Below are positions 3,001-62,335 of a DNA stretch of 64,000 nt, piece by piece. This DNA comes from Opisthorchis felineus (taxonomy: Eukaryota; Platyhelminthes; Trematoda; Opisthorchiida; Opisthorchiidae). The DNA lies in the NCBI GenBank assembly GCA_004794785.1, contig SJOL01004185.1:79105-143104 (forward strand), in the 5' to 3' direction. The position numbers were made by a program, and so were the translations under genes. The notes under the pieces are model-generated. The model searched no databases and was not told the origin of the DNA. It worked only from the letters and a program-made list of their open reading frames with translations. Position 1 is the stretch's first letter. Every line of letters begins with the position of its first letter.

Positions 3001-5410
3001 CTCCTACACAAACGCGCATTTTGCAAACAGTGAAAATAATTTGTTCCGTGGTCTGCACACAGTTGTGGTAAGTGTACCATTCATTCGATTACAGCTAAGC
3101 TAAAAACACTCGGAGCATCTTCCATCCATTTGTTTACCGTAAATTCCTCTCAGTTACTTTGTGCAGCAAATTCGCTACCTTTCCATGCAACTGTTCTCGG
3201 CGTACCTCCAAAAGCTAATCATATATTTTAACCTTGTTATTCTAAAGTCTTTTTGGAGCCAGAGACTTCTACGTTCCATGTTGAACTGAATCCTTCTCAT
3301 ATTGAACGAAATTGTGCCCCCAGGATTAGGTGTTACCAAAACTACCAACTGTAGAGCGCGTTCTTAATCCTAGTCTGTTGATGCGATCATTCTCAGCTTT
3401 CTGGTCATTTGGACAAGTGGCTTGTGGTTAACTTGAACCAAATATATAATCTAGTCGGTACTAAAACTGAGAGTAAAAGTGCTCCCGCTCATGTTGCATG
3501 GGGGTCCCAGAGTTGGTGATGGAAACGGTAGATGACCTCGAGACTGCCTAATCGAAGCAGGTTTGTGTTGCTTTCCTCCGCGCTTATAATTGGTCAACGT
3601 CAATGTGTAGGTCACTCTGCCGAGTTAAGCTGCGCTTGATGGGCATAGGCAAACGTAAACGGTACTGATCAATAGCTACTGCTCCAAGAGGCGGATTTCC
3701 TCCAATGAACGTGAATTACTACCGTTTGCGGATTCAGTGGTACTGAGTGACCTGTGTGGATTTAAGTAGGATAACTGTCACCAACAGTGACACTTATGTG
3801 ACCTAGATGTCACGCAATCCAGCCGTGTTCTTTTTTCTTGGAAACTAACTCAAACGTATCGAAATCTTCTGTACCCTCAGCTAAAGCACTTGTGTTGAAC
3901 AGCAACCTATCTCTTCAAGGGCAAGCAATTCTGAAACTTTCTTAGAGGCACATACGCTTACAGGCGCAGCAATTAATAACCCATCGTTACAGTTTGCGGT
4001 CAATGTTGTAATGCTGAGCAACTCCTCAAAGGATTCATTCAGAAATATTCATTTCCGATGAAAGACCACATTAGCAAATTAATCTGTTCTGCGGTTTGGA
4101 GCAGAACAATGTAATCTGTTGTGTTCAAGCCTTGACACTCAAACAACCAGGGAAAGCCAACCCTATCGGTAAAACCATTGAGGTAAAATTCGATGTCTAC
4201 CGTGGCTGTAACGATCCGCACGAAAAAAAATCAGTTGTTACAAAACATTTGCATCAGAAAATTAGAAAAAACTTATAAATGATCTGGAAATAACTGAGTA
4301 ATCACCAGAAAAATTGCCAGACCCAGAGCTTGTGGTGGCAGCATCTCAATCCAAGAGCCCATTGGCATCATTGTCCCACCGAAGAGCAGTATCCAGTTTA
4401 TTGCAGCTTGCTACAATTCTTTGACCAGAGTTGTTCACAATAGATCGACTATTTTCTACAAAACACTGCCAACGCTGAACGGTGAAGTGTGTACACAAGC
4501 AAAACTACGTCAAAACGTGGTTTTAGGCATACAGTACTCCCTCTTTAATGTGTCCCTCTTTAAAATGATTGACGCTAACGCTCCTGAAACATTTTCCTGA
4601 CGAAAACGCATCTGAGACATGAGAACACTCTCTAATCCGAAATCCGACCGAATTTTTACTGCCTGATGTGAATTATGTAGTCTGATTGAATAAAGTCGGC
4701 TAATGTCCATATCACGACCAAATCAGACTGTTTGAATAATTGTGGACTTAGGGTGCATGTAGGTATAGGCCCATACTGAGAGACAACAAATCAGCAAGCT
4801 GCGTAAACTAGTGCGTATTTCACTAGCTACCTGATCAGTACCTAAGCCACAACCGAGGCAGGGTCCCGCATTCACTGCTTCACTTTGTTTATCTTCATCT
4901 GCCTTACAGCCTGGTACTCCGACTGCCTTTATAGTACATTCACTGGGTACCGTTCATCACCTATACTTCTAGTATTGCACACGACTACCCTCTGAAGCGT
5001 GAAAGGGGAAGTTTATAATGCAGTGTCGCCAAGGTAAGCGACACACACGAGGTAACAGCATAAAGTCTGTTCACCGAGTTTATATTCATGAAGGAAGTAT
5101 AGAATGAACTTAAGTCATCAACTCATACTCAGCTAACATTTGTTTTGGTCCCACCTGTCATTTCTGTCTCAGAGTTTGTCAATGCTGTTCAGCGTCGAAT
5201 TCAGGGAAGAAAAAAAGCCCTCAGTTTGGGGAAGGCAAGAAAAGTTATTCAGAGGAGCATAGCTTCTGATCGTTTAATAGAGTGCGCAAAAACAGCAAAT
5301 TCAGTTTATTGCAAACGACAAAGAAATCATCATGCGCATCTGGAAAATGTCTTGATTGCCTAAAGAAAGTAATCGATGGCCAGCAGTGTTTTGAAGTATA
5401 AATTATGGAA
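1..5410. other. Unassigned spacer, no gene recognised
   Basis: I found no recognisable protein family, RNA gene or repeat copy here. Open frames are short (under 95 codons) and none is bounded by convincing splice signals. The only local structure is at 3778-3813, where GTCAC and its complement GTGAC alternate four times in 36 bases. The stretch could be intronic or intergenic. Confidence 0.5.
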
Positions 5411-9000: not shown

Positions 9001-9230
9001 CTTGAATTGTCTCCAGCTGACCTTCGAGACCGCAGACTTTACTGGCTTTGACGAATATGACCTTTCCAAGTATTGCGATGAACTCCCAAACTATCTGTAG
9101 TTCTCTTTCGATTTGTACCGTTGCGGGGGAGCCATGGGTATCAAACCAGATAGTATCACTTCTTCTGTACTCCACAAACTCTGTCGTAATTTGGAAAGAG
9201 CATCAAAATATGAAGACAAGCCAATGACAA
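6040..9230. other. Unassigned spacer
   Basis: No family recognised. There is a perfect 10-base tandem duplication (TCAGTAGTGA) at 7871-7890. Two overlapping plus-strand open runs of 60-97 codons at 8177-8463 and 8675-8968 show no domain I can name and no paired splice signals. They may be further transposon debris. Confidence 0.4.
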
Positions 9231-9350
9231 AAACACTCTATCCTTCAAGTAAAACATTAGGTTGACGGGACTTCGGGGACTGCGCCTAAATGATGAGCCC
9301 CAAGAAGGGCGAAACCGGTCGTCGGTTGTTGAAGGGTTTCCAGCAATTTT
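9231..9350 (+). repeat. Family C repeat fragment (C1) carrying a hammerhead-like motif
   Basis: This is a partial copy of the dispersed family C, oriented by its ribozyme strand. It shares the upstream block of other copies (TTCAAGTAAAACAT, then TTGACGGGACT and CGGGGACTGCGCC), then the hammerhead core, then the downstream block ending near TTTCCAGCAA. Similar blocks occur near 13.05, 13.35, 23.1 and 27.3 kb. It lies about 300 bases upstream of the LINE RT relic, in the same orientation. Confidence 0.7.
9284..9326 (+). ncRNA. Hammerhead ribozyme-like motif in C1 (core C3 mutated)
   Basis: Core TGATGA at 9291-9296 lacks only its leading C, which is A at 9290. Stem II is GCCC (9297-9300) with loop CAAGAA and GGGC (9307-9310). 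GAA follows at 9311-9313, then the self-complementary ACC/GGT of stem III (9314-9319) and cleavage base C at 9320, giving a GUC triplet. Stem I (GCCTAA with GTCGGT) keeps three standard pairs plus one G-U. The motif is recognisable, but the core mutation and weak stem I suggest it is inactive. Confidence 0.6.
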
Positions 9351-9654
9351 ATGAGTAGTTTTCTATCCTATCCTTATTAAGGCAGAGTTAATCCGACAGT
9401 CCAACGGTGCATACATACGGAAGGTGATGAAACCTCTTTTGGGTCAGAAGAGAGAAGAAAGCTTCCACCGATATCAACTAGTTGAGTCGCTCGCTAAGAC
9501 CTTGGCGTTTTTCATTGCATCTCTCTCACCAATGTGTGAATACACCAGCTACCAGTGTACCTATGCATCGCGTACATAACAAACTGAAAGTCTCTTTGTA
9601 AATAGGTTTAGTTGACTTGAGAGTGTCTGTCTTAGTCTAAAGGGACTGTTGCAT

Positions 9655-12039: not shown

Positions 12040-13015
12040 TTTTTCTGAAGGAAATAATTCTGTTGAACCAAATAAATTTCGTAGAAGTATACTCCTCCAT
12101 GGGTAATAGGCCTCTTAGAACACAGCAGGAATTGTCCCATGAATGGGTTTTATCTCCAGAACCACTAGCACAAAGGGGAAGTGCTCCATTGATGAGGATC
12201 GTTAACCTATGCCGGAATATCACCGTGATCGCCAAAATTAACCAGGGCAGCTCGTCACCGCCGCTTCGTCACCGATTTACAAGCGTAGTCAGTATTCCAC
12301 GGACAAAACAGGCATACTCGGTTGAACGGGTCAAATCGTCTCCCTCGTGGGAAAGGAAATGAGTGAACGGTTCGGCTGAATGTACCACTTTGGACAGTGA
12401 GCTCACCTGTCTGCTTTGTTGAGGCGCAAATTTGGGCAAGTTCGGCTTTCAGGCCACAGCTTGATTCCTTACCTGAACCGAGCGGTGTGTATCCGTCAGT
12501 TGGTGAAAAGTCCACTCCTCGTCCGCTGCCCATAGTGCATCTATTCAGTGAGAGGATCATCGGCCGGCAGCATGCGCTGCCTAAGTAGGACCTTCTAACC
12601 GCGTTTCAGTTGATGCAAAGTGTACTCCTGACCAGGTCTTTTCTTAGCTACCTTTCATAAAGTGGGGAATTCAGGTACCTTAGGCCTGTGGCTTGACGCG
12701 CGAATTATGTACGATTTCGGCACAATACTTCAGTTGTTGAAAGTACATTCATTTCTCAAAGCCTAGTCACTGACGTTCAACAGGACACACTCGCACACTA
12801 CTTGTTAGCACTGAGAGTCGAAAGAAGCGTTCACTCTTTAATGTCCTCTAACAGAATGCGCAGCGCAAACTTCAGTTTGTTCATATTTGTTGATGCATTC
12901 TTCTTCGGGAGCGACAGTAAACATCAAATTGACGTTAACTAACACTACAGAAGGTGAAATGGATGTCACCTCAGGAACAAGTCGTGAGGTTTTTACTTGA
13001 CGGTGGACACTAATC
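12040..13015. other. Spacer with a GC-rich patch
   Basis: Bases 12240-12590 are visibly richer in G and C than the surroundings and are open in more than one frame on both strands (around 100 codons). I recognise no family in any frame. It may be old repeat or exon debris. The rest is unassigned. Confidence 0.35.
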
Positions 13016-13275
13016 AAGAGGGTGCTGAAATCTGCAGCCCACGACCGGGACTCGGTACTCATCAGGTAGGCACAGTCCCCGAGTTCCCGTCAACCGTATG
13101 TTCTACTTGAACACGAACTTATAAGCCGTTGGCAAAATGCGCTTATTTGCAACACCAGTTAGTTCTGGTGGGAGACTCAACTGAATCCCAGCTGAATCTC
13201 TCGTTCATGATGTTCTTCTTCAACTGAATGTGCTGCACCAGGCCGCCTCATTCGAGATACCGAAATGCATTGCAT
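13016..13275 (-). repeat. Family C repeat, copy C2 (tandem unit)
   Basis: On the plus strand this runs from the hammerhead region (13037-13071) through GTTCTACTTGAACACGAACT and an AACTGAAT block to the landmark TTCAACTGAATGTGCTGCAC (13219-13238). Its ribozyme strand is minus. It directly adjoins copy C3 in the same orientation, giving a head-to-tail pair with a spacing of 290 bases between the two cores. Confidence 0.7.
13037..13071 (-). ncRNA. Hammerhead-like motif in C2: perfect stem I, stem II lost
   Basis: On the minus strand GCCTAC (13071-13066) and GTGGGC (13042-13037) can form all six stem I pairs, and the core CTGATGA (13065-13059) and the CGGTC cleavage side are intact. The 11 bases in between (13047-13057) replace stem II and the GAA segment, so the copy cannot fold as a hammerhead. 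It is valuable because it preserves stem I. Confidence 0.55.
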
Positions 13276-13535
13276 AGACGTAACTCACTACTCATGAGGT
13301 TGCTGAAAACTCTTCGACATCCCACAACCGGTTTTGCCCTCTTGGGGCTAATCAGATGGACACAGTTCTGGAGTATCCGTCAATCTTATGTTCTACTTGC
13401 ACACCAACTTGCACGCCAATGGCAGAATGCACTCGTTTGTAGAATAAACCACTTATAATGGAAGAGACAACTGAATGCCAAATGAATCTCTTGTTTAGGT
13501 TATTCTTCAACTAAACGTTTGTGCGGACAAGAAAA
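13276..13535 (-). repeat. Family C repeat, copy C3 (tandem unit)
   Basis: Second unit of the tandem pair. The plus strand shows GAGGTTGCTGAAAACTCTTCG, the hammerhead complement at 13320-13356, GTTCTACTTGCACACCAACT and CAACTGAATGCC, ending with TTCTTCAACTAAACG near 13503-13517, the C3 version of the TTCAACTGAATG landmark. Confidence 0.7.
13320..13357 (-). ncRNA. Hammerhead-like motif in C3
   Basis: Minus strand: stem I TCCAT with GTGGGA gives five pairs counting G-U wobbles. The core reads CTGATTA (13355-13349), so the G8 position is T. Stem II is GCCC/GGGC with loop CAAGA. The GAA segment is AAA (G12 lost), and the cleavage triplet is GUU. The shape is conserved but two core positions are lost. 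Confidence 0.5.
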
Positions 13536-13559
13536 TATACTGCAATATCTCGTATAGTG

Positions 13560-13675
13560 TACAACTGAAACACAAGGTGGCCTTTGTGCAACACATTCAT
13601 TTGAAGACTATCATAAATGCGTGACCCAGCTGAGATTCAATTGAGTTTGCTGTTGACACCAAGTTAACTTCAAAA
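13560..13675 (+). repeat. Family C fragment, inverted relative to C2/C3
   Basis: The plus strand carries AAGGTGGCCTTTGTGCAACA and CATTCATTTGAAGA, the reverse complement of the TTCAACTGAATGTGCTGCAC landmark and its following GGCC block. The hammerhead part is absent. Strand is given in the ribozyme sense used for the other copies. Confidence 0.5.
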
Positions 13676-17589: not shown

Positions 17590-20045
17590 AAAAAAAGTAA
17601 TAGTATGGGTTACCAATACGCTCATTATAAATAACACAACGCCTCCTAGTCCAGCACATTTAAAAGGAAATATGAGTGTGTGGACAGAATCGGGAACAAG
17701 GCATTTAATTTCTGCCGCCTGTGTGAATAGTTTTTGTGGACCTTGTTCCACGAATAGCTAAGGTGACTCGTACTCTTATTGGTCAAAATTATGAGTTTGT
17801 AACGCAATGTTTGTGTAAGATGTTTGACATTCGCGTTCACCTCTCTTACGTTTGAATAGGCCTACTCCTCCCCTTCTGGAGGGAGGGAAACCGTGGTCTC
17901 GGTTTCGGCTTGTCTGCAGAACATATTCTTGTCCGTGGCGGGGTTTGAAATGTGAGAAATTCTTGTTACTACTACTTCACCAGCAACGCCTGATTTATCA
18001 CTTCTGAATAGGTGAACGCGTTCACGCTTGAGCGATGTGATTGGCTTGTCGGACTGCTCCAAGTGAATGCCACGTTTGACCCACCGGTCAGGACTTCCCA
18101 GTCAGGTAGCAATACTAAAGCTAGAAACCAGCTTAGCAAATCTGATTATTCCACTGCCTCCTCTGTTTGGTGTGGACGGGACAGGAGGACTGTTCAAACG
18201 AGAATAACAGGCCTGTGAATTCCGAAAATCCCGTAACTTCCTGTTCTCTTATAGTGAATACTTACCGCTCCAATGACTTTGAGAATATGGTTTCGCTTCG
18301 ATTGCGTTCAATGAAGAGAAGGCAAGGTCAATTCGAGGATAACACCAAAAACAGCAGTACCACAGGGATCCGGTGAAGCCGGAATATTTCGTGTGGTCGG
18401 TTTTCCAGTCGGATCTTGCTCAAATATCATGCTTCGCCTTCATTGCATTTTAGCTGGTTTGCAAAGGTCCTTCCACTCCACCATGTTTGTAGAGCGGATA
18501 CACTGCACTCCTTTCAGCTAGTTTTTTTTTATTCTAGGAATTTTTGAAAAAAAAAGATATCCCTCACATCATTTAGGGAAGACTACTTTGGTCATGCTCA
18601 TATGTAATTGCCATGGAATCAACATAATATCGTGGGTTACCACTGTAAATATGCTGCAACTCCTGAAGATAGCTGACTAACTAAGAATGAGGTCAGCCGC
18701 TCATATTAGAGATTATAAATTTGAGGCTGTGAAACTTTGGGTCCCGTTAATCTGTTTCATCAAGACATCAAGAAGACACAGATTGTGAGATGTTAGCTTT
18801 TCAAATTACTTTCATCAGTCTCATTTTGCATTTCTGGGTAAAAGCTACATTAACAAAGGTTGGACATCTGTCACATGAGGCCTCATGACAGAATTTCGGG
18901 CGCGGTCAAATATGGGAGAACTTTATAGCCTGAGTCAATACTTTTGTGCACACAGTGTTGCCCTAATTGGCATACCTTCACAAAAACCCAAATTGTTTGA
19001 ATCTCGGTCTCAGAGTAAAATCTCAAGGTTTTGAGACATATTAGGTAAATGTCGTCGATACTGAGGTGTCGCTTGCCAGGTGGATGGTCCGTAGGAACTT
19101 TTTTGTTGAGTGCGAAGGCATCGTCCGTTCGACCTATATGTTTCCCTGCAGCTGCAAATGACTTAACAGATAACATGTGCGGCAGGGTAGTCACCAATAC
19201 TTTCGAACTTAGCCTGAAATGTCAATCCCCCGGTTTCTGAGGCAGGTAGTAAATGAGCTGATTTAAACGTACGGTTTATGGTAGATTTGTGTTTTGCAGT
19301 ATATTTTTATCAGCGTGGTCATCTTTAAACAGTAAACAAGGTGGGAGCAGTGCTAATAATATCAGACTGTGTTTTTGGTTTGCTGCAAAATCTGATGAGC
19401 CCCTCCTGGGAGACGTTGGCGATCAGTGTCGGTTTCAGGAAGACTTCGTTCTCACTTGGGTGAATACGACACCCGCTCAATGATAGTGTTCTCACCAAGC
19501 CCCGCTCACACGGACTGGACAAGAAACTAATAATGTGCATATATTGACCACTGGAGCTCAACGGGAGGCCGTTTGCTGTGAGTGTCCATTCGGGAATGAC
19601 TCCCTTTTCGATTTAACCTCAAAATATTGGCAGGCTTGAGTGACTATAATTCGGGGCTTTAGGAAAATAAATTGAAATTAAGATCACAAGTAACAGGCAA
19701 GATACCATTCCTGTAAAGTTTGCAAGGATGAATATTGGGGATATTATCACAGAGTTCTTCCTCAAACATTGTCCGAAAAATATCAGTTGAATTCTGACGT
19801 AATAGACTGCCCTTAAAAACCATCTAGTTGTCTGTGACCGATTCCCTCAGAAGTGAAATGGACATTTTGTTTAGAGAAGGGTATAAAGTCGGCTAGTGGA
19901 TAAACTGACAAATTCAATATGACGTCGTGTGCAGTAACATGTTCATGAAGGTATTCGTGGAACAACGAATCAACGATAATGGAAGACAACTTCTAGGAGC
20001 TTACAAGTAAACAGGCAAGTCCCTGGAAAAGTTCAAATGATCTTC
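17590..20045. other. Unassigned spacer
   Basis: No repeat copy or domain recognised. The longest open run is on the minus strand at 18883-19197 (104 codons), with no family resemblance I can defend. CTGATGAGCCCC at 19391-19402 resembles a hammerhead start, but the rest of the fold is missing. Confidence 0.35.
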
Positions 20046-20178
20046 AATTGAAAGTTTGCCCTTTAAGTGGAGCCAATCTACACTGAAAAGCCGACAATCA
20101 CTGTACAGCTATTTCATCATCATCAGCAGTGCTGATCTCACGAAACTCCAACAGAGAGTTTTGAACCCGTCACTGAAT
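20046..20178 (-). repeat. SINE-B fragment
   Basis: The plus strand matches 61828-61990: TTTAAGTGGAGCCAAT, then AAAAGCCGACAATCACTGTA, CAGCTATTTCATC, and CACGAAACTCCAACAGAGAG before a TTTTGAACCC box. Read on the minus strand it is a tRNA-type B-box followed by the SINE-B body and tail. The A-box end is missing. Confidence 0.65.
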
Positions 20179-20179
20179 T

Positions 20180-23070
20180 TCGCATTATTTAAATCGGTCT
20201 CAGTAATACAATTGGCTTGCGGATTTTCGTTCGTAGGTTTCCAGTTGGTTTCCAATCGGTTTGAGGCGGTTTTACTGTGATCCGTAGTTAACTAAGTGAT
20301 TTTTTAAAACTTCTAAGGGCTCCCGGTTGCCCACTTCCCTAGCAAAATGTTCTTTACAGGAGTCTTATCTCTTAAATTTTCGTTCATCTGCACGAATCTC
20401 TGTCATTTCTGGTATTCAGTCATTCTTATGGAATTTTAGGAAGTTTTCAAGAGGAATACGAAAACCGCAAATACAATTTAAATTAGAGGATCTATGGGAC
20501 CAAGCAAAGGAACTTCATCCCATTGACAACCAAAAGCTAGGTTGGCTGAAAGAAAAATGGGTGTATATGTCTGATGAGTTTCTGCCTGCTCTATGCAACA
20601 GCGTTTGTGTCTTTTGGCCGAACCATGTCAAGTTATCAAACAGCTGGGTGTCCTGTAAATAACTTGATGTTTTTGCAATCAGACGAAGACATCTATTCCT
20701 TCCTGTCAATGTGCAACCATTTGTCATGCTCTCCTAAAGATGTGGACTGGTTTTAAAAGATTGTGAAAAAATGAGCAGTGAACATCGTACACATTAGCTG
20801 AGAATAGCAATAGTGTCTGAGGCCAAAGCCACCTTGAACCGACGGTTTGACGATGATGCGCCAAACATTCCCATCATTTTCAACGTAGTCAATGACGAGT
20901 GAAAAGGATTTAATTCTCCAGGTTTTTAAAGAAGCTGTAGAAGTTACTTGTCTGTCCAACAGGGTGTATGATTTGTGGGAACACTGTGTGCGGTCAAATC
21001 ATCTGTGAATGCTGCAACTGGTTGTCAGATAAAATGAATGGTGATTCATCCCCGGAGCATGGGCTTCGTTTGGTATGATGCTAATAGCCGACGATCTCGA
21101 AGACGCTCTGCAAAATCGGCCGTAACAACTAGGCGCATATAAATTTGGATTCACGTTGTGTTATTCACGGCCAATGTAAAGAGGTAAGCATTAAAGTGAA
21201 GATACTTAGAAAGAGGGAGTAGTATACTTCAAACAGAAAAGTGCTTACACATCTTTTTCAGCTCGTTTGCATCATAAGCATCGTATCTCGTTTCAGAGAG
21301 GTTCATTGGATCTCTTTTAAACAAGCATGCACATTGTCGGAAATGAGACGACTTTCACCAACTGTCCAGCTTGTTTTCTAAGCGTGTTGGATGCCAGCAT
21401 GCTTGGTCGATCATGGCCCAAAGAAAAGCGTCGAACAAGTTTTGAATAGTTTTTCACTCAAGTTGTAGTCGAAACCTAATTCCACCTGGCGCCCATGTTC
21501 AGTGTTTGAAAAAAAAACAGGTTACGAGGATTATCCATTCACATGACATTTAGATTTTCGATGAAGAGCTGTCGTCATATGACTCTACTTTGATAACCAC
21601 ACACGGTAGCCTCTGTAAAGTTCTTCTCTTCAGCTAAATGTCACTTACAAGGGCTCAAAGTGGAAAACTAAGGAACCATTTATTGAATTAAGTGGACATT
21701 TTAGCTCAGAAGTAAACGGTCTGAAAAACAGTATGGAAAATGCTAGGAATCTATTATTTTTTCCTTATCTTCATGCAATCAATTGTTCAACAACGCTTTA
21801 CACCTGGATTTCAGTTTAGTAGAGGGTGGCTAGTGCACTGCTGTCTAATGGTTCTTTAGAAATGAAGTGAAACATGAGCTAAAGGTTTTAAAGTTAGTTT
21901 ACAAGCAGGCGGCACGTAACTTATCCGTCGTTAGTAGTGACATCGCCTTCCAACATATCATTTTGCTTGTTCAAACCTCTCAGCACTCTTTGGTAATAGT
22001 AAAACCTCTTCCATCTTCTGGCAGTGATTATTCTTAGTTGAGGAAACTTTTCATTATGGAACGGGATGCAATTTCACATCCTCACTGTTTTTGTACTGCT
22101 CTTGTGGTTGGAAGTTTCGAGTGTGATTGTTCTCAATGTAGGCCGAGATTCAGTCACGCGTTTCGGCGCTGTTGTCTTTATTTTTGTTACATTTTCGCAG
22201 TTTACTTTTGGTATAACAACAGTGTTGCTGGAATGAATCCCCAATAAATCCTGACTTTCATACGCAGAAGTGGCAATACTCTTCAACTATTCATAAACGC
22301 CGCGTTCGACAGGTCTACTTTTGAGACCAGCTAGCTAATCCATCTAGTGTTAACCTAATCTATTTGGGTTCCCTTCTGGTCAAATTATTGCCAGTTTGGA
22401 ATTGAGTCAGACAGTTAGTGCCTCACTTCAACACAGACCCTGTACAGATTGGCCATACAGACTAGCACCTGTCTGATCCAAGCTGAGACTGCCCCTCAAT
22501 GACTTCTGTTGGAATGAAGGTGGTCTAAGTCTCTTTTTGTCGAATTTCTCGTTAATCCAGCATTCGTCTCAGTTATTTAAAAGTTCAGTCTTGATGTAGA
22601 CAACAGTTTTATACCGGAAAATCCATCTAAGGTGGTGACGGCGTGTGACGGTCCCCTCTGGGACGCAACCTCAACTGGGAAACAGTTTTCGAGCAGCCGA
22701 AATGGGATAGTCTACAATATACCAAAAATTCCAGGACGAAACCAGACAGATCCTACGGGGAACAGTGACACCAAATTGTCACTTAGTCAGTATACACCTA
22801 CAGAATCTTAAATAGCAGGACTTTTGGGAAAAAAAGTACCAACTAACTAGTGTTGTATTGCCAACTTATAACGATGTAGTCAAACGAACTAGTGATTTCA
22901 GAGCGTAATTGGTAGAAATTTGGCCGCAGCGGATAGGACAACTGTTAACAAGTAACCGGGACTGCTGTTCTTTTGCCGTCTGAGGGACAATGCAATAAAT
23001 GTCACTCGGGTTGAGCTTTCAAAATTATTTTCCACTTGTCAGTAAAACAAAACGACTTATACATGCATCC
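20180..23070. other. Unassigned spacer
   Basis: An open plus-strand run at 20327-20662 (111 codons), followed by another at 20574-20756, contains a charged stretch (QFKLEDLWDQAKELHPIDNQ) that could be an exon or old element. No splice pair or family fits. The remainder shows nothing I recognise. Confidence 0.3.
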
Positions 23071-23079
23071 GCTTACCAA

Positions 23080-23260
23080 TTTGGTTTCGACGGGAGAATC
23101 ACCTGGAACTCAGCCTAATCTCTCGTTTACAGTGTTCAAGTAGAACATAAAGCTGACGGAAACTCGGAGACTGCGCCCATCTGATAAGCCCCAAGAAGGG
23201 CGAAACCGGTCGTGGTCGGTGGAACAGTTTTCAACAAGCTTACGTATTACGTCTATACAA
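23080..23260 (+). repeat. Family C repeat, copy C4
   Basis: Ribozyme strand is plus. The blocks are CTCAGCCTAATCTCTCGTTT, GTTCAAGTAGAACATAAAGC, TGACGGAAACTCGGAGACTG, then the hammerhead, then GGAACAGTTTTCAACAAGCT. This is the copy in which the ribozyme is most complete. Confidence 0.75.
23175..23217 (+). ncRNA. Hammerhead ribozyme-like motif, best preserved (C4)
   Basis: Hammerhead RNAs cleave their own backbone after an NUH triplet. Stem I is GCCCAT (23175-23180) with GTGGTC (23212-23217): five of six pair, one as G-U. The core is CTGATAA (23181-23187) against consensus CTGATGA, so G8, the general acid, is A. Stem II is GCCC (23188-23191), loop CAAGAA, GGGC (23198-23201). GAA is at 23202-23204, stem III is ACC/GGT (23205-23210), and the cleavage base is C at 23211, a canonical GUC. 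Stem III is self-complementary ACCGGT with no loop, as in minimal hammerheads that act as dimers. The fold is near complete, but the G8 change should abolish or greatly slow cleavage. Confidence 0.72.
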
Positions 23261-23264
23261 CTGA

Positions 23265-26200
23265 ATATCATGTTTTTTTTCCGTGACTTGCCCGTGAACT
23301 GTTTCCTACCGAGTTTCATATATCTTTCCGCAGCAAAAGTGGATACTGATCATGCTTTTAGTACTTCTCCTTAGCAAAAACTATTTCGGTGTGTTCAGCT
23401 GGGCCTTTGACGCTTAACAATAGGTTGAAGAACATTACTAAGCAGTTTCATTCGAACTTCGATCAAATCTCCTGTTCGTCAAAATTGCCCTGAAAACAAG
23501 CGTTTCATCGGACATCAGTGGCCGAACACTCCAATATGGCGTTACCGGAGCTGATCAGTCAATGCACATTTCACCAACTACAATGATGTAGAGACCGAAC
23601 AACCGAACACCAATTCAGCATACAGCTGTGTGTGGGGGTTGAGTCCTGCTCTCCCATGAACACATGTAATGTGGCGCTGTGGAGTGAATGTTCTTTCCGT
23701 CAACTTAAGCAAAATTACCAGGTCAGACTCAGCTCACACGTGTAGCTGATCGCCCTTCTGATACTTGAATAACCATCTTAAAAAAAGCATACAAGTACCA
23801 CTTGTGAAATGTGCTTTCAGCTGGCCGATGTGAAATTTCCACCCGGCCTACGCAATCAGCCGAGTGGATCTTGACAACTAAACGCGTCTCTGAAAGTACA
23901 TTTTACAGCAGCAAAGTACTGGAACCATTCCACTCGCTGAACAGTGTAGGAGGACATATCGCTCCGCCAACTAATTAGGTCAACCGCCGTAATGAAGGCC
24001 TTATGAACCCCTTTGGGGTTGTTCCTCATCAAAAACCAACAGGTTTGTTGTTTGCACAACGTTAGCCGAATATGCGACCGAAAGTGAGCCCGGCCCAGAA
24101 AACTGTTCTGGTTGATCACTTTCTTCAAGACAATATAAAGTAACTATCCCTCATGAACAGCACGTTTTCGCTTTATTCTGCTCATTCCGGACAGTTTCGC
24201 CTGGGCATTTGGGTAAGGTCATCTCTCAGATAGGTGACTATCATGGGAAATGATCAAAAGGGGTTTCACATTGAGATATAGTTTCACTTTGGACATTTGT
24301 CGTTGCCTTTTGGGAGGTTTCTTGGCTCTTTTATAAACTTTTTCTTTCTTCAAACTATTTCCTCCAGCGGGTTCATTGTATGTCTGCGGATGGATTACTG
24401 GGGAATACTGAATACGTGCGCTAGCCTGATAGCAACCTAGATGTCAAACAGATCATTGCGCATGAGTACGATTTGTAGGCCTTATAGTTAGGCTTACATT
24501 TGTTCCGTCGCGCTTATTTTTTAATTTTCTGTCATGGGTCCGAAGAGCATTCGAACGAGCAGTTTTGATTTCCAAATGTTTTCCCTTTCTCAGTGTTCAT
24601 GAACAAATTCGGAGACGACCGATCTGAGGAGGATATGGGTAATGCGTAATCAGACCGTATCTGTTGGTGCAGTATGCACCTCATTCAGGTTTGCGTCCAA
24701 ATCCTTGTGTGACAACATCCGAAAGACAAAATCTGCGTTGTATTTCTAGAAATTCGAAACCAATGGTATAGAAATTCCTCTTATGAATAAAATGAATGCG
24801 GTAAACATCTGAGCCGATAACCGACCGGTGTTTGCAATGTGCTGGAACCGTGATAATGGTATTAAAATGCGCAGTCCTCGCAACTACGGATCAGGCGATT
24901 ACATGGCCAGTACTGTGGTGTTGTGGACATCTCCAACACTTAAGTTGATCCCTCAGGCAAGTCTCGTGAGCGTCCGTAAGTTTTAAAAAATAACATGGTG
25001 TGCAGAAGGGCACTATCAGACTATGGAGAAGGACTCGCATGGACTCGTATGAACCAACGTAATCAAAAATCCGAAGGATAGACAGTGCTGAGGCTGCGTA
25101 GCCTCACGTCCACCAATGGTCGCATTCATGGGAGACTTCAAACAGAAGAAGGCTTAGGCCGGATGTGCCTGCCTATCCAAAGTTGTTTGACGTGTTTTAA
25201 ATGATCGACTGTTATGATCAGTCGTGATAAGATCAATGATTTCCACCAGTGCCCCAGTGATTCAAATCTACACTACAGTTTTTTAAAGCCACGCTACCCT
25301 TCCTGGACTGTGTGACAAATAACTGTTGTGCGAGACTAAAAATAAATTTTTGCCTGGAATTTGAAAAAAACAGTCGTCAAACCATCCTAAGGCAACACTG
25401 ACTCATTAATATTTAGTCTATTTATAACGCTGTGCGTGGAAGAATTCAACTGAACCTCATTCTAAGTTGACGTCAAAAGGAAAATTTGGGAAACGTCATA
25501 TCGGTGATACTTATTAAGCGGCAAATAAAAAGGATAGTATGCACTCAGTAAGGAGTGCTAAACGCACACGACATTAGAGAGTAGCTTTTCAAAAGGGAAG
25601 AACTTTACGCTCAGTATTTGCGCAATTAAAGGTCAGTTTCCTGGTTGAAAGGACTAGACCACAAACCGTGCAATTTTTATACCACGCACACTGTGGCTGT
25701 CACGGTCGACTGACCTCAAATTGTCAAGTTCTCCGCCACCGATAGAAGGTATATGGTTTTCTTGTACCTTAAACTGAATGCACGAATGTCCTCATAGAAC
25801 AGTCGGCCGAGGAACTACAAGCCTGATTTAATGTGTACAATAGAAAAATAACTAAGCGACCTGGAAATGCAAACTGATATCGGATACTGTTTAGAGTCTT
25901 CTTGTTTGCGAGAATGTAGTGGACACAGGAAATAAAACTGATCCAGAAATCATGACGGGGGGATTACGATTCACGACACTGCCCAAATGGTCAAGGCGAT
26001 GGAAATCGCCAAGTATCCCAGCGTGAATGGTGTAACGGGTGTAGAGCTGACGAACGTATGGGGAGTAGCTTTAGATCAGCCAAGTTGACGGGTAGCTGTA
26101 TGCAGCCGTCAGATAACAGAAGCCATTAACAGAGATAAATTGGATTTAAAGTAAGATACACGGTCCGATCAAAACTCATTTAATCCATCCCATCCTCTTA

Positions 26201-27204: not shown

Positions 27205-27565
27205 ATTCTAGCTTAGATTTTGTTTCCAGATCGTAGTTTGGTTCAAAGCCGAGTTTCTATTTTCGTGACAAAGACACCGCTCATTAGGTTGATGAAAACT
27301 CGCCGAAGGCCCACTACCGGTTTCGCTTTTCTTGGTGCTCTTCTGGTAGGAGTAGTCTTTGAGATTCCATTCACCGTTTTACTTGAACACCAGCTGGTGT
27401 GCAGTTGGTGGAATATACTCATTTGCATTGATGTTAACGAGAAACTCAACTGAATTCCTCGTTTGTGCTATTCATCAACTGATTATGCTGCACACGGGTC
27501 ACCTCATATTTCAGTTGGCACAATATTCGAGACATCACAACCTCAGTGGTCCTAAAATCGAAAAA
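27205..27565 (-). repeat. Family C repeat, longest copy (C5), with degraded hammerhead
   Basis: It spans about 350 bases. From the plus-strand left: GATGAAAACTCGCCGAAGG, the hammerhead complement at 27305-27350, TTTTACTTGAACACCAGCT, AACTCAACTGAATTCC, CATCAACTGATTATGCTGCA, and TTGGCACAATATTCGAGACA at the right. On the ribozyme (minus) strand the core is CAGAAGA instead of CTGATGA and stem II is reduced, but GAAACCGGT and stem I (CCTAC with GTGGG) persist, with cleavage base A. It shows the full extent of the family. Confidence 0.72.
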
Positions 27566-29744: not shown

Positions 29745-29941
29745 GTGAGATTAGTGATATGTGGGCTCTGTCCAATCATATCTTCGAAGAGAAGAACGAA
29801 CGGGAATATGCTATTACCCACACTTGCTATGGGTGTTCTCTCCTCAGAAGTGTGCACATTAGATCGTATGATTAAGTAAAGCCCGGTTGTGACCTCTCCT
29901 ATAGAGTGACCCCTTTTGGAGAGTCGTGGTAGTTTCCCTAA

Positions 29942-30135
29942 GAAAAAAAAATCGTTCAGCTGTAACACCCTTTCAGTGCCTATCTGCCATGCCACTCAAA
30001 GGAAGCACGAAGGCTGGGATACAGTCAGGTTGCCCAAGTGTAGACAGGGGAAGTCGAGATGCAGAGGTCGGGTTCGAACCACTTACCTTCCGGTCAGTAA
30101 ATTCGCGCTGTAACCACTGAGCCATCTCGCCCCTG
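29942..30135 (-). repeat. SINE-A copy, nearly full length
   Basis: A tRNA-derived SINE on the minus strand. The head is GGCGAGATGGCTCAGTGGTT (pol III A-box), followed by the B-box GTGGTTCGAACCC. The body runs through CCTCTGCATCTCGACTTCCC, CCCAGCCTTCGTGCTTCC and GGCATGGCAGATAGGCACTG. The 3' end GTGTTACAGCTGAACGAT is followed by an A/T homopolymer (T8 in the SINE sense). SINEs of this type are transcribed by RNA polymerase III from the internal boxes and moved by a partner LINE. Confidence 0.85.
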
Positions 30136-30340
30136 CTACTACTTCTGAAGCTGAGGTGGAGGGGGGGTGGCATCAGCTCGATGGTTTTCTCTTGAATCGC
30201 TGGCCCCCTAGATGACCACACCAGGCTAGTGCCTGTTCTTGTAACTAGGTTTTCCGCAAGCTTCTGTCCATTGCTCAGAATAATTTGAAATCTTCATCAA
30301 TAACCTTCCGACATTACTTCAGATGGACTGTTTGATCACT

Positions 30341-30575
30341 CGGACCTTCCGGTCAGTAAATTCGGCTCAGTGGTTAGAGCGCGACCGGAAGGTAAGTGGT
30401 TCGAACCCGACCTCTGCATCTCGACTCCACCTGTCCAGGCTTGGGCAAACTGGTAGTATCCCAGCCCTCGTGCTTCCTTCGGGTGGCATGGCAGCTAGGC
30501 ACCGAAAGAGTGCTACAGCTGAACGATTTTGATTTCGCCCTAACCACAGCCATCTCGCCCTCTGAGCCATCTCTG
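30341..30575 (+). repeat. SINE-A copy flanked by inverted SINE-A head fragments
   Basis: The central plus copy (30364-30540) has A-box GCTCAGTGGTTAGAGCGCG, B-box GTGGTTCGAACCC, the standard body and 3' end GTGCTACAGCTGAACGAT. Its left edge (30341-30364) is a minus-oriented piece, GGACCTTCCGGTCAGTAAAT. Its right edge (30543-30575) reads AACCACAGCCATCTCGCCC and GAGCCATCTCT, again complements of the SINE head. The ACCTTCCGGTC and GACCGGAAGGT segments can pair as a hairpin. Confidence 0.8.
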
Positions 30576-31469
30576 CTTCAAGAGAAATTCAGGCTGTCGT
30601 GGTACCACTATTACCCCAATACACTGCACCCCCGTCCGAAAGGAACGCACTCTCTGTCTAAGGAAAAATCCCGCCCTTCTTGAAAGCTTCTGGCATTTTC
30701 TCCGCACGGCTCAACTAGAAATGGATGAAGGAAACAAATTAGGTTCCACTTACTTCACTTGGGATAAAAGAGCATTAATTGCTGTGGAGTGTTTCAGCCG
30801 CCGGCCCGTGGTTGATACTTGTGTTGTATAGTGTTTATCGCGAGAGAGATGTTTGGCGAATGAATAAATCCGAAATGCCAAATTTAATTGACATGATCTG
30901 CAGCGTGGTCGAATGTTACTTCTGGTACCGACACGCCGTTTTTATCTTCCTAGTCTTTTTAGTTCCAGAAAGTCCCGAGTTCCGTTGCTGAAGTACAGCC
31001 TGCTTATTTCTGATTTTGATGTGTGCCTACTGCTGTCAACACGTCCTGTTGTAGACCCGGCTGTTTGCCTTTTGTTTCTTTTTCTACAAGCACTACAGCT
31101 TGTAACAATGGGTACTGACCCATCTTGGTTCGTATGAACCAGAGCGGTCGCCGAGCCAGTGTCGAAAGTGAGGATAAAAGTGTCCTACATCGTGTTGCAT
31201 GGGGATCATCCAGCCGGAGAGGAAGATAAACCGTCACATTGCTAATCGGAACAGAAGTATAATACTATCGCCTACTACTTTCGGAAATACTGGAACGACG
31301 TCAAAGCCTTACGATGTGGTAAAATTTACCTATGCTAGACGTACTCAGACTTGGTTGTTGCTGGCCGGCAGCACCCATTGTGTAGAGCAGAATTCTCTGG
31401 AATAACTTGAAATGCTACCGTGTATGAACTCAGCAGTGATCATCGGCTTGCACGACGTCTGAGAAGAAA

Positions 31470-31632
31470 ACGTTCAGCCGTGACCCACTTTCGGTGCTTA
31501 GCTGCCATGCCACCAGAAGTAAGCACGAGGACTGGGATACCGCCAGGTTGCCGAAGCCAGGGGAAGTCGAGAGGCAGAGGTCGGGCTCGAACCACGGACC
31601 TTCCGGTCAGTAAATTCACGCGTCTGAGAGGT
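31470..31632 (-). repeat. SINE-A copy, 5' truncated
   Basis: The minus strand carries the SINE-A B-box GTGGTTCGAGCCC, the body and the 3' end GGGTCACGGCTGAACG. The A-box region is replaced by unrelated sequence after AATTCACGCG. This is the third SINE-A copy within 1.7 kb, in alternating orientation with its neighbours. Confidence 0.8.
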
Positions 31633-38249: not shown

Positions 38250-38340
38250 GAAGGCTTCTGATGATTCCCAATAGGGATGAGACGTCTGAACAGTGCTTCT
38301 CGGCTTTTCTGTATAAATTGGCTTCACTCAGAAGTGCTAT
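38250..38340 (+). repeat. SINE-B tail fragment
   Basis: GATTCCCAATAGGGATGAGA, CAGTGCTTCTCGGCTTTTCT and TAAATTGGCTTCACT match the body and tail of the copies at 20.1 and 61.9 kb (reverse complements there) and at 62.26 kb (same strand). The tRNA-like head is absent. It abuts the RTE-like RT relic. Confidence 0.65.
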
Positions 38341-50813: not shown

Positions 50814-50997
50814 GTCGAGATAGCTCAGTGGTTAAGGCGCTAGCTTACGAACCTTAGTTCGAACCCGACGTCAGCATCTCGATTGTTCCTGTCTATGCTT
50901 GGGAAACCTGACGGTATCCCAGCCCTCGTGCCTCCTTCCGTTTGCATGGCAGCTAGGCATCGAAAGGGTGCTACAGCTGGATGATTTATTTTTTTTG
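50814..50997 (+). repeat. SINE-A copy with clear A and B boxes
   Basis: A-box TAGCTCAGTGG is at 50821-50831 and B-box AGTTCGAACCC at 50856-50866, spaced as in a tRNA. The head cannot close an acceptor stem, so it is SINE rather than tRNA. The body continues with CAGCATCTCGATTGTTCCTG, TATCCCAGCCCTCGTGCC and GGCATCGAAAGGG-type sequence, then GTGCTACAGCTGGATGATTT and a T-rich tail at 50987-50997. It is the copy with the best pol III promoter. Confidence 0.85.
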
Positions 50998-57724: not shown

Positions 57725-57900
57725 CTGGCATAAAAAGCGGCAGTCCCAAATTTCTTCCAATAATTATACCATGAGAAGACTAGTCAGAATTCGCTGGGAG
57801 CTCATCACCGGTTTTTCCCTGTTTAGTGCTCACCAGAAAAGTGTATTCCCACAATTCCAGTCAGCCTTTTTTTTCTTACTTACGTACCGTATTGTGCACA
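57725..57900 (-). repeat. Family C fragment (C6) with diverged hammerhead
   Basis: The plus strand around 57785-57838 (GCTCATCACCGGTTTTTCCC then TGCTCACCAG) is the complement of a family C ribozyme. On the minus strand it gives CTGGTGA for CTGATGA, AAA for GAA, and an intact ACCGGT. Stem I is not maintained. The flanks match family C only weakly. Confidence 0.45.
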
Positions 57901-61025: not shown

Positions 61026-61204
61026 ATAACGCGCTACTTATATAATGAGCGGGGGGTTCCTTAAATCTCCGTTTAACACCAGTGTGGTTTCCAGATTATC
61101 GTGGTCCGCTAATTGCGCACAATTTGGTTACTGGGGCGACTTCGCCTTTCTGATGTCCCTCAAAGGTCAACCGATAATGGGCTGTCTAAGGGTCTTCAGT
61201 AACC

Positions 61205-61827: not shown

Positions 61828-61990
61828 TAGAGATTTTGTCCTGTAAGTGGGACCAAACGAAACTGGAAGGCCGGAAAGCAGTGTACAGCCGTTTCATCCT
61901 TATTGGGAATCATCAGCAAGGCGCGCCTCCAGTAGGGAGTGTCGTGCCCGCGACTTCACTCACTGGGCGAAATCTCCATTAAAAGTCCCA
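61828..61990 (-). repeat. SINE-B copy, minus
   Basis: The plus strand reads GTAAGTGGGACCAAAC, GGAAAGCAGTGTACAGCCGT, TTCATCCTTATTGGGAATCA, GCGCGCCTCCAGTAGGGAGT, then a degenerate B-box complement. On the minus strand the tRNA-like end comes first. It forms a head-to-head pair with the copy at 62165. Confidence 0.7.
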
Positions 61991-62164: not shown

Positions 62165-62335
62165 CTGCTCGTCGCCTAACGGTTAGGTGTTCAAACTATT
62201 AGCCGGGAGATCGTGGGTTCGAGACTCCCTACTGGAGTTTCGTGAGGTGTGCGCTGCCGATTATTCCTAATATGGATGAAACAGCTGTGCAGTGCTTATC
62301 GGCTTTTCAGCACAGACTGTCTTCAAGATCATTTT
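62165..62335 (+). repeat. SINE-B copy with tRNA-like head
   Basis: A-box-like CGCCTAACGGTTAGGTG (62173-62189) and B-box GGGTTCGAGAC (62215-62225) resemble a tRNA-Glu or tRNA-Asp type head. CTCCCTACTGGAGTTTCGTG, ATATGGATGAAACAGCTGTG and CAGTGCTTATCGGCTTTTCA follow. The acceptor arm does not pair, so it is a SINE and not a tRNA gene. The head differs from SINE-A, so the two families arose from different tRNAs. Confidence 0.72.

Follow-up and report, generated by a model that had tools for sequence, protein, structure and literature searches.

Hammerhead copies in the window

The locus raises the question of whether a short repeat of Opisthorchis felineus, here termed family C, encodes a hammerhead ribozyme, and if so what kind of element carries it. 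The window, i.e. the whole 64,000 nt stretch of DNA analyzed, is part of contig C541. The focal hammerhead is on the plus strand at positions 23156–23233, extended stem I included, and is matched by Rfam and by R1, a family C model built from 13 copies whose rows include the focal copy and four further window copies. The repeat unit around it spans 22959–23268 (plus strand) and is a row of a five-window-copy profile. A sequence-only reading had proposed a hammerhead at 23175–23217 of the plus strand, and the order it described is present: stem I, core, stem II (GCCC/GGGC with a CAAGAA loop), GAA, ACCGGU, GUC and stem I. Read from the sequence, the predicted cut is after the GUC at 23211. Because the core reads CUGAUAA, with an A at 23186 in place of the core G (G8 in the hammerhead numbering), and three of the 22 designed pairs are broken, the focal copy is probably an inactive ribozyme as it stands.

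The other copies are found on both strands. A hammerhead with the core AUGAUGA is at 9265–9342 (plus strand), within a repeat unit at 9080–9378 that is also a row of the profile. A head-to-tail dimer of family C units with a period of about 288 bp is on the minus strand at 12991–13588, as displayed by the unit alignment and the profile, and its two units are identical in 163 of 236 aligned columns (69%). The hammerheads of the dimer are at 13304–13380 (unit 1) and 13021–13090 (unit 2, where most of stem II is missing). A copy with a decayed core is at 27293–27370 (minus strand), in a profile unit at 27259–27556. These four copies are, like the focal copy, R1 rows, and have E-values of 1.7e-21 to 7.3e-9. 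Two very decayed copies outside the model are matched by R1 at 57784–57861 (minus strand, 30.3 bits, E = 2.7e-5) and 61124–61198 (plus strand, 23.7 bits, E = 0.0019). The R1 search of 223,497 bases of contig C541, which covered the window and its flanks without L001 (which reads N), gives 22 places at E ≤ 1. Thirteen are the model's own rows and nine are new, several of the latter belonging to the families D and E described below.

All five other copies of the sequence-only reading (9.3, 13.05, 13.33, 27.3 and 57.8 kb) are thus matched by R1 at E ≤ 2.7e-5. The reading gave them single defects; counted over the 22 pairs and the core letters, each of five window copies has several, and none of the five aligned copies is intact. 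The column majority of the 13 copies does restore CUGAUGA, GAA, GUC and a six-pair stem I, GCCUAC/GUGGGC, as had been claimed. A genomic copy outside the window, L009:1957–2034 of contig C541, matches this majority exactly; it has every core letter and all 22 designed pairs, and displays the core of a type I hammerhead, CUGAUGA...GAA...NUH with three helices and open at helix I.

In the neighbourhood, another dispersed repeat family is at window positions 29940–31621 and 50816–50996, whose copies, present in both orientations, reach 85% identity. To the right of the window on C541, L010 and L012 contain open frames of a cadherin-like gene; the L012:1925–4318 frame finds its best named matches in Schistosoma, at 52% identity across 42% of the query, and in Taenia (37%). 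An ATC trinucleotide microsatellite of nearly 4 kb starts at about position 5450 of L011, near a family C insert.

Model scores, core counts and covariation

The best-scoring Rfam family is Hammerhead_HH9 (RF02275), which shares with family C the core, the stem II length, the CAA-AA type of loop II and the outer stem I. It matches the focal copy over its full length at 23165–23239 with 35.2 bits and an E-value of 3.7e-5, counted across 64 kb and 4227 families. A second window match is at 9291–9320 (27 bits, E = 0.016). The L009 copy is matched with 35.2 bits and there are nine matches of 31.3–36 bits in L027–L031, although HH9 E-values vary with the stretch searched. The HH9 model was made for a conserved amniote ribozyme.

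None of these matches attains the Rfam cut-off. There are no matches at gathering level in the window, the HH9 gathering score being 52, and the 10 of 18 flanking loci searched at that level gave one match, a tRNA. None of the 12 Rfam rows in L027–L031 reaches its own cut-off (best HH9, 36.0 vs 52 bits), and HH9 is silent at E ≤ 0.1 on the decayed C541 copies in L005, L011 and L015. Hammerhead_3 (RF00008) gives nothing at E ≤ 0.001 in the whole genome; its control matched in none of 14 genomes, so this silence carries no weight. Matches to Xist, SCARNA7, MIR9555 and MIR837 are all below their cut-offs and were rejected; those to MIR9555 and MIR837 overlie parts of family C in inverted arrangement.

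The core pattern CTGATGA-N4-CAAGAA-N4-GAAACCGGTC, in which stem II is left free, is found at 3,690 places (1,826 + 1,864) in the 630 Mb genome, and its reversed control at none. Thirty-five stem II variants are present among the listed places of this pattern, apparently 100 in number. Nineteen of the 35 keep four standard pairs, and of five pairs changed on both sides three are still paired and two unpaired. The covariation score of the 13 copies (0.107) does not exceed that of shuffles (0.111). Compensatory changes in the stems, whose absence was one of two refuting outcomes named by the sequence-only reading, are therefore not seen above shuffles within family C; its other point, a significant hammerhead model match, came out positive, so that the outcome is mixed. 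Lack of covariation is not taken here as refuting a hammerhead, as independent decay of copies made from few masters would give the same result. In our own weighing the weak scores and this lack of covariation, like the single-copy folds and the ends without duplication described below, rank behind the number of core matches in the genome and the intact copies: a dimer-type ribozyme, seen as single decayed copies, is expected to give such a picture. The central claim stands: with a significant HH9 match, albeit one under the curated cut-off, an intact L009 copy and the core count against its control, family C on its sequence carries a real hammerhead motif.

Stem architecture and predicted folding

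Stem I of family C is extended. The six pairs are followed by GAC/GUC and then by GGAAACTC/GAGTTTTC, with internal loops between them. In the palindrome ACCGGU, ACC directly adjoins GGU, so that there is no room for a loop and the two cannot close as a three-pair hairpin within one copy. The self-complementary stem III of the sequence-only reading is thus impossible inside a single copy, and its description of a minimal hammerhead with a tiny stem III is wrong in detail, given the longer stem I and a stem III that, by prediction, needs two family C copies to form, as a double hammerhead.

The RNA energies are consistent with this. A single hammerhead in which stem III is reduced to its outer A-U pair has −22.1 kcal/mol; in the single-strand optimum (−30.2 kcal/mol) CUG is paired with CGG instead. 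For two strands the optimum, −64.5 kcal/mol, is precisely the double hammerhead, compared with −60.4 kcal/mol for the sum of two single optima. Folds of single copies are no different from shuffles in four of six cases (z = −2.06, −0.17, 0.12, −1.07, 0.31 and −2.14). According to passages of PMC7229834 and PMC7761336, newt hammerheads are known to cut as dimers, and those of Penelope-like elements (PLEs) likely do so. The palindromic stem III of family C suggests that cutting is controlled by copy number, where one unit stays whole and two units cut.

Abundance, tandem units and age

Scaled up roughly from a single contig, where R1 has 13 matches at E < 1e-8 in 223.5 kb, family C can be guessed to number about 37,000 copies in the genome. 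Its units, of about 290–307 bp, are found scattered, as pairs and as an array of at least 12. There is one type I hammerhead per tandem unit, and the periods are about 288 bp in the window, 293 bp in L009 (one unit and a partial second unit), 304 bp in contig C79 and 307 bp in contig C14. A pair in contig C68 at 293 bp spacing (L029) was rejected as a clean tandem because its members are separated by unrelated sequence and an inverted junction. Three units analyzed have a GC content of 0.454–0.466 and a longest ATG frame of 62–98 aa in the doubled unit, i.e. GC is below 50% and there is no coding capacity, as is described for retrozymes. A Pfam search of 10 of the 66 window frames of at least 90 aa found no families.

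The C14 array (G000:C14:132097–135511, minus strand) displays 12 sites at an exact spacing of 307 bp and then runs into an assembly gap. Two units lying far apart in it are identical at all 305 bases compared; towards the other edge, the final unit carries several base differences. In C79, neighbouring units 304 bp apart have three differences and a third unit is more decayed. Given the identity of the two distant C14 units, family C has been amplified recently, at least as DNA. The repeats had been called relics, which is apt for the window copies and does not hold for the family as a whole, given the C14 units. Family C is thus more than a fossil, even if DNA amplification may enlarge an array.

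Insertion ends

The sequence GAGTGTATTTCGCT is found at 3,487 genome places, its reversed control at three. Among 100 listed of these places, 55 stop right after CGCT(AA) and pass into unrelated sequence, 44 run on into the next unit and one is unclear. The 3′ end of family C is fixed, because the listed places either stop at this position or continue in tandem. No poly(A) was seen at the 3′ end among the 100 listed places. In the 55 flanks, bases 3–20 past the fixed end are T-rich (401 T in 990 letters), possibly because the enzyme prefers such targets.

Target-site duplications were analyzed at six hand-picked ends, four of which had been noticed by eye beforehand. Duplications are present in L009 (plus strand, 12 bp), L003 (13 bp), L031 (12 bp) and L015 (8 bp); the L009 minus-strand and L011 ends, two of the six, have none (7 bp or less). 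At random window positions a duplication of at least 12 bp has a frequency of 0.001 and one of at least 8 bp a frequency of 0.086, so that the L015 duplication is within chance. The L009 duplication is partly common to the element's own sequence. Where present at these six hand-picked ends, the duplications all exceed the 4 bp described for retrozymes.

The L009 insert consists of one unit and some 75–80 bp more. The 5′ part is inverted in L031 and L015, and several of the 23 family C clusters on C541 show head-to-head pieces. Target-primed reverse transcription with twin priming, as known from LINE biology, leaves marks of this kind: a fixed 3′ end, duplications and 5′ inversions.

The ends were also compared with the ribozyme cut, GUC|GUGGGC. 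Direct insertion of cleaved linear RNA would yield copies whose first bases are GUGGGC or whose last are GUC. No start at the cut is found among 100 listed of 6,066 places, two of which break off about ten bases upstream, and no end at the cut among 100 listed of 5,146. The nearest end in the latter list, about eleven bases past the cut, belongs to the inverted part in L031, and two rows show small internal rearrangements near the cut. Because no listed end is at the cut, the template would have been either an uncut tandem RNA or a re-joined circle, and cleaved linear RNA has left no direct trace in the listed ends. Tandem RNA that stayed uncut would account for the copies equally well, and the insertion ends fit both this and a circle.

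Other hammerhead families in the genome

Two further families, D and E, display the same fold. Family D hammerheads are at L005:1606–1677 (plus strand, HH9 E = 9.2e-5) and L015:1543–1613 (minus strand, HH9 E = 6.6e-4). CTGNTGA with the loop TAATAA is found at 245 genome places, most of those listed reading CTGATGA, and at none in the reversed control; stem III is the palindrome ACTCGAGT. Family E hammerheads are in the window at 61877–61924 and 20041–20175 (minus strand) and at 38256–38338 and 62206–62319 (plus strand). This family has the loop CAATAA, the stem III palindrome ACAGCTGT and the cut triplet GUA, and 233 genome places have the complete core with stem II left free, again with none in the reversed control. 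By eye, the stem letters differ among families C, D and E yet mostly pair, and stem I of D is similar to that of E, the two families being possibly related. Upstream of both D and E, words resembling tRNA promoter boxes were seen by eye, and no tRNA model match for a tRNA head was found in the two places tried.

Nature of the element

Family C is best read as a non-autonomous, non-coding retroelement of the metazoan non-LTR retrozyme kind, inserted via target-primed reverse transcription of tandem or re-circularised RNA, with a probability of about 0.77. The sequence itself contains the hammerhead, the tandem unit, the fixed 3′ end, some duplications, the inversions and copies that cross the cut site. 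Transcription, cleavage, circle formation and the enzyme used are steps that we infer. Tandem units would be transcribed together, and two hammerheads in one RNA would pair via the palindrome ACCGGU as a double hammerhead and cut after GUC. The cleaved product would be joined into a circle. A reverse transcriptase (RT), borrowed from an autonomous retrotransposon, would prime on nicked target DNA at the fixed 3′ site of the RNA (...TTTCGCTAA) and would copy onward for a length that varies and in some inserts exceeds one unit, at times inverting the 5′ part. Insertion would leave a target-site duplication of 12–13 bp. The published model of metazoan retrozymes (PMC7229834, PMC7761336) is in agreement with this reading, which is also favoured by the presence of PLE-type RT and GIY-YIG in the genome.

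An alternative is that family C is the terminal repeat (pLTR) of a PLE left as solo repeats, its hammerhead being the PLE hammerhead. This is considered unlikely. Direct and inverted partial repeats, 5′ truncation and tandem hammerheads are PLE-like features, in part as described in PMC7761336. PLE copies with an RT of the PLE type and a GIY-YIG domain are present in the genome, and weak family C matches lie about 400 bp from one of them (L026:3839–4010, E = 2.7e-7). On the other side, the three family C units contain no long frame and no region with RT and GIY-YIG, and R1 finds nothing in L019–L024 (L021 is part of L026) or L025. The two PLE copies compared, L025 and L026, end in a different 3′ tail, and family C was rejected as the tail of the PLEs found. 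A tail word pointing to a link with family C would be the ...TTTCGCTAA end, or GAAACCGGUC between the repeats. Because the six GIY-YIG places found come from 150 scored of 553 candidates, other PLE families may exist in the genome.

The PLE copies are at L025:2220–3900 (plus strand) and L026:2100–3430 (minus strand), with RT and GIY-YIG, and each displays by eye a hammerhead-like word in its 3′ tail. Rfam does not recognise this word in the L025 tail, where there is nothing at E ≤ 5. The L025 copy also has a 59-bp inverted 5′ repeat.

It is more doubtful still that family C is an ordinary SINE or satellite with an unused passenger hammerhead, its tandems made by DNA recombination and its dispersed copies by reverse transcription of linear uncut RNA. 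A SINE driven by a LINE may show a fixed 3′ end, duplications and 5′ inversions. The lack of listed ends at the cut (100 of 6,066 and 100 of 5,146 places) and of covariation across the 13 copies would agree with an idle ribozyme, and the near-identical C14 array could be DNA amplification. An unused passenger is difficult to reconcile with a core that is complete in 3,690 copies and with the same fold in three families of different sequence in one genome, and an insert of more than one unit with a fixed end needs a tandem or circular template. That the fold is a chance resemblance, as the never-reached gathering level might suggest, can practically be dismissed, given the window HH9 match at E = 3.7e-5 over all families, its repetition at other loci, and a core complete at 3,690 places vs none reversed, even though the copies are related and count as one origin.

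Under the retrozyme reading, a tentative and rather doubtful extension is that circles re-ligated after hammerhead cutting are reverse transcribed directly at the target site, in a target-primed and rolling manner, the ribozyme acting as cutter and perhaps as ligase. This is suggested by the shared 3′ end outside the ribozyme, the intact cut site, the inserts of more than one unit and the LINE-like 5′ inversions.

Comparison with known elements

In the Sm-alpha repeats of Schistosoma, stem I is extended and loop II has six bases starting with CAA, and both traits are also found in family C. Families D and E are, by eye, closer to Sm-alpha than family C is, and family C differs from it in that no tRNA-like or Pol III head is shown. 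Passages of PMC6155905 describe Sm-alpha as a fluke type I hammerhead in a short repeated element, like family C. The minimal hammerheads of PLEs share with family C a very short stem III, tandem copies and possible dimeric cleavage (sections of PMC7761336 and PMC6155905); family C differs in its extended stem I, the absence of an RT or endonuclease frame in three units and the different tail of the two PLE copies.

The closest likeness is to the metazoan non-LTR retrozymes of coral, mussel and axolotl. As far as described in the text of PMC7229834, these have a type I hammerhead in tandem repeats of about 150–450 bp, from dimers to large multimers, a GC content below 50% and target-site duplications of more than 4 bp when present. 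A weak palindromic stem III is found in part of them (amphibians), and PLEs are present in the same genomes. All of this is like family C, and retrozyme-like repeats are stated there for platyhelminths. Family C differs in sequence and species, and in its fixed 3′ end outside the ribozyme, its 5′ inversions and the lack of listed ends at the cut. The passages of PMC7229834 considered here make no mention of these features, and the word "inverted" is absent from its main text. Family C is known from sequence alone, its circles and cleavage being predicted. Among the titles and abstract openings listed in a literature search, which is a weak basis, none describes family C or a fixed 3′ end. The retrozyme kind is thus already known, and family C would be a new family with insertion features that deserve a full count.

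The step by which retrozyme RNAs re-enter animal DNA is only proposed in the published scheme, where a primed circle gives tandem cDNA, as far as the passages of PMC7229834 describe it. If direct reverse transcription of circles is true, thousands of O. felineus inserts would hold a genome-scale footprint of the step that the published model only proposes. Because this genome holds copies by the thousand in good preservation, together with a fixed 3′ end, young arrays and three coexisting hammerhead families, it makes the step testable by counting ends.
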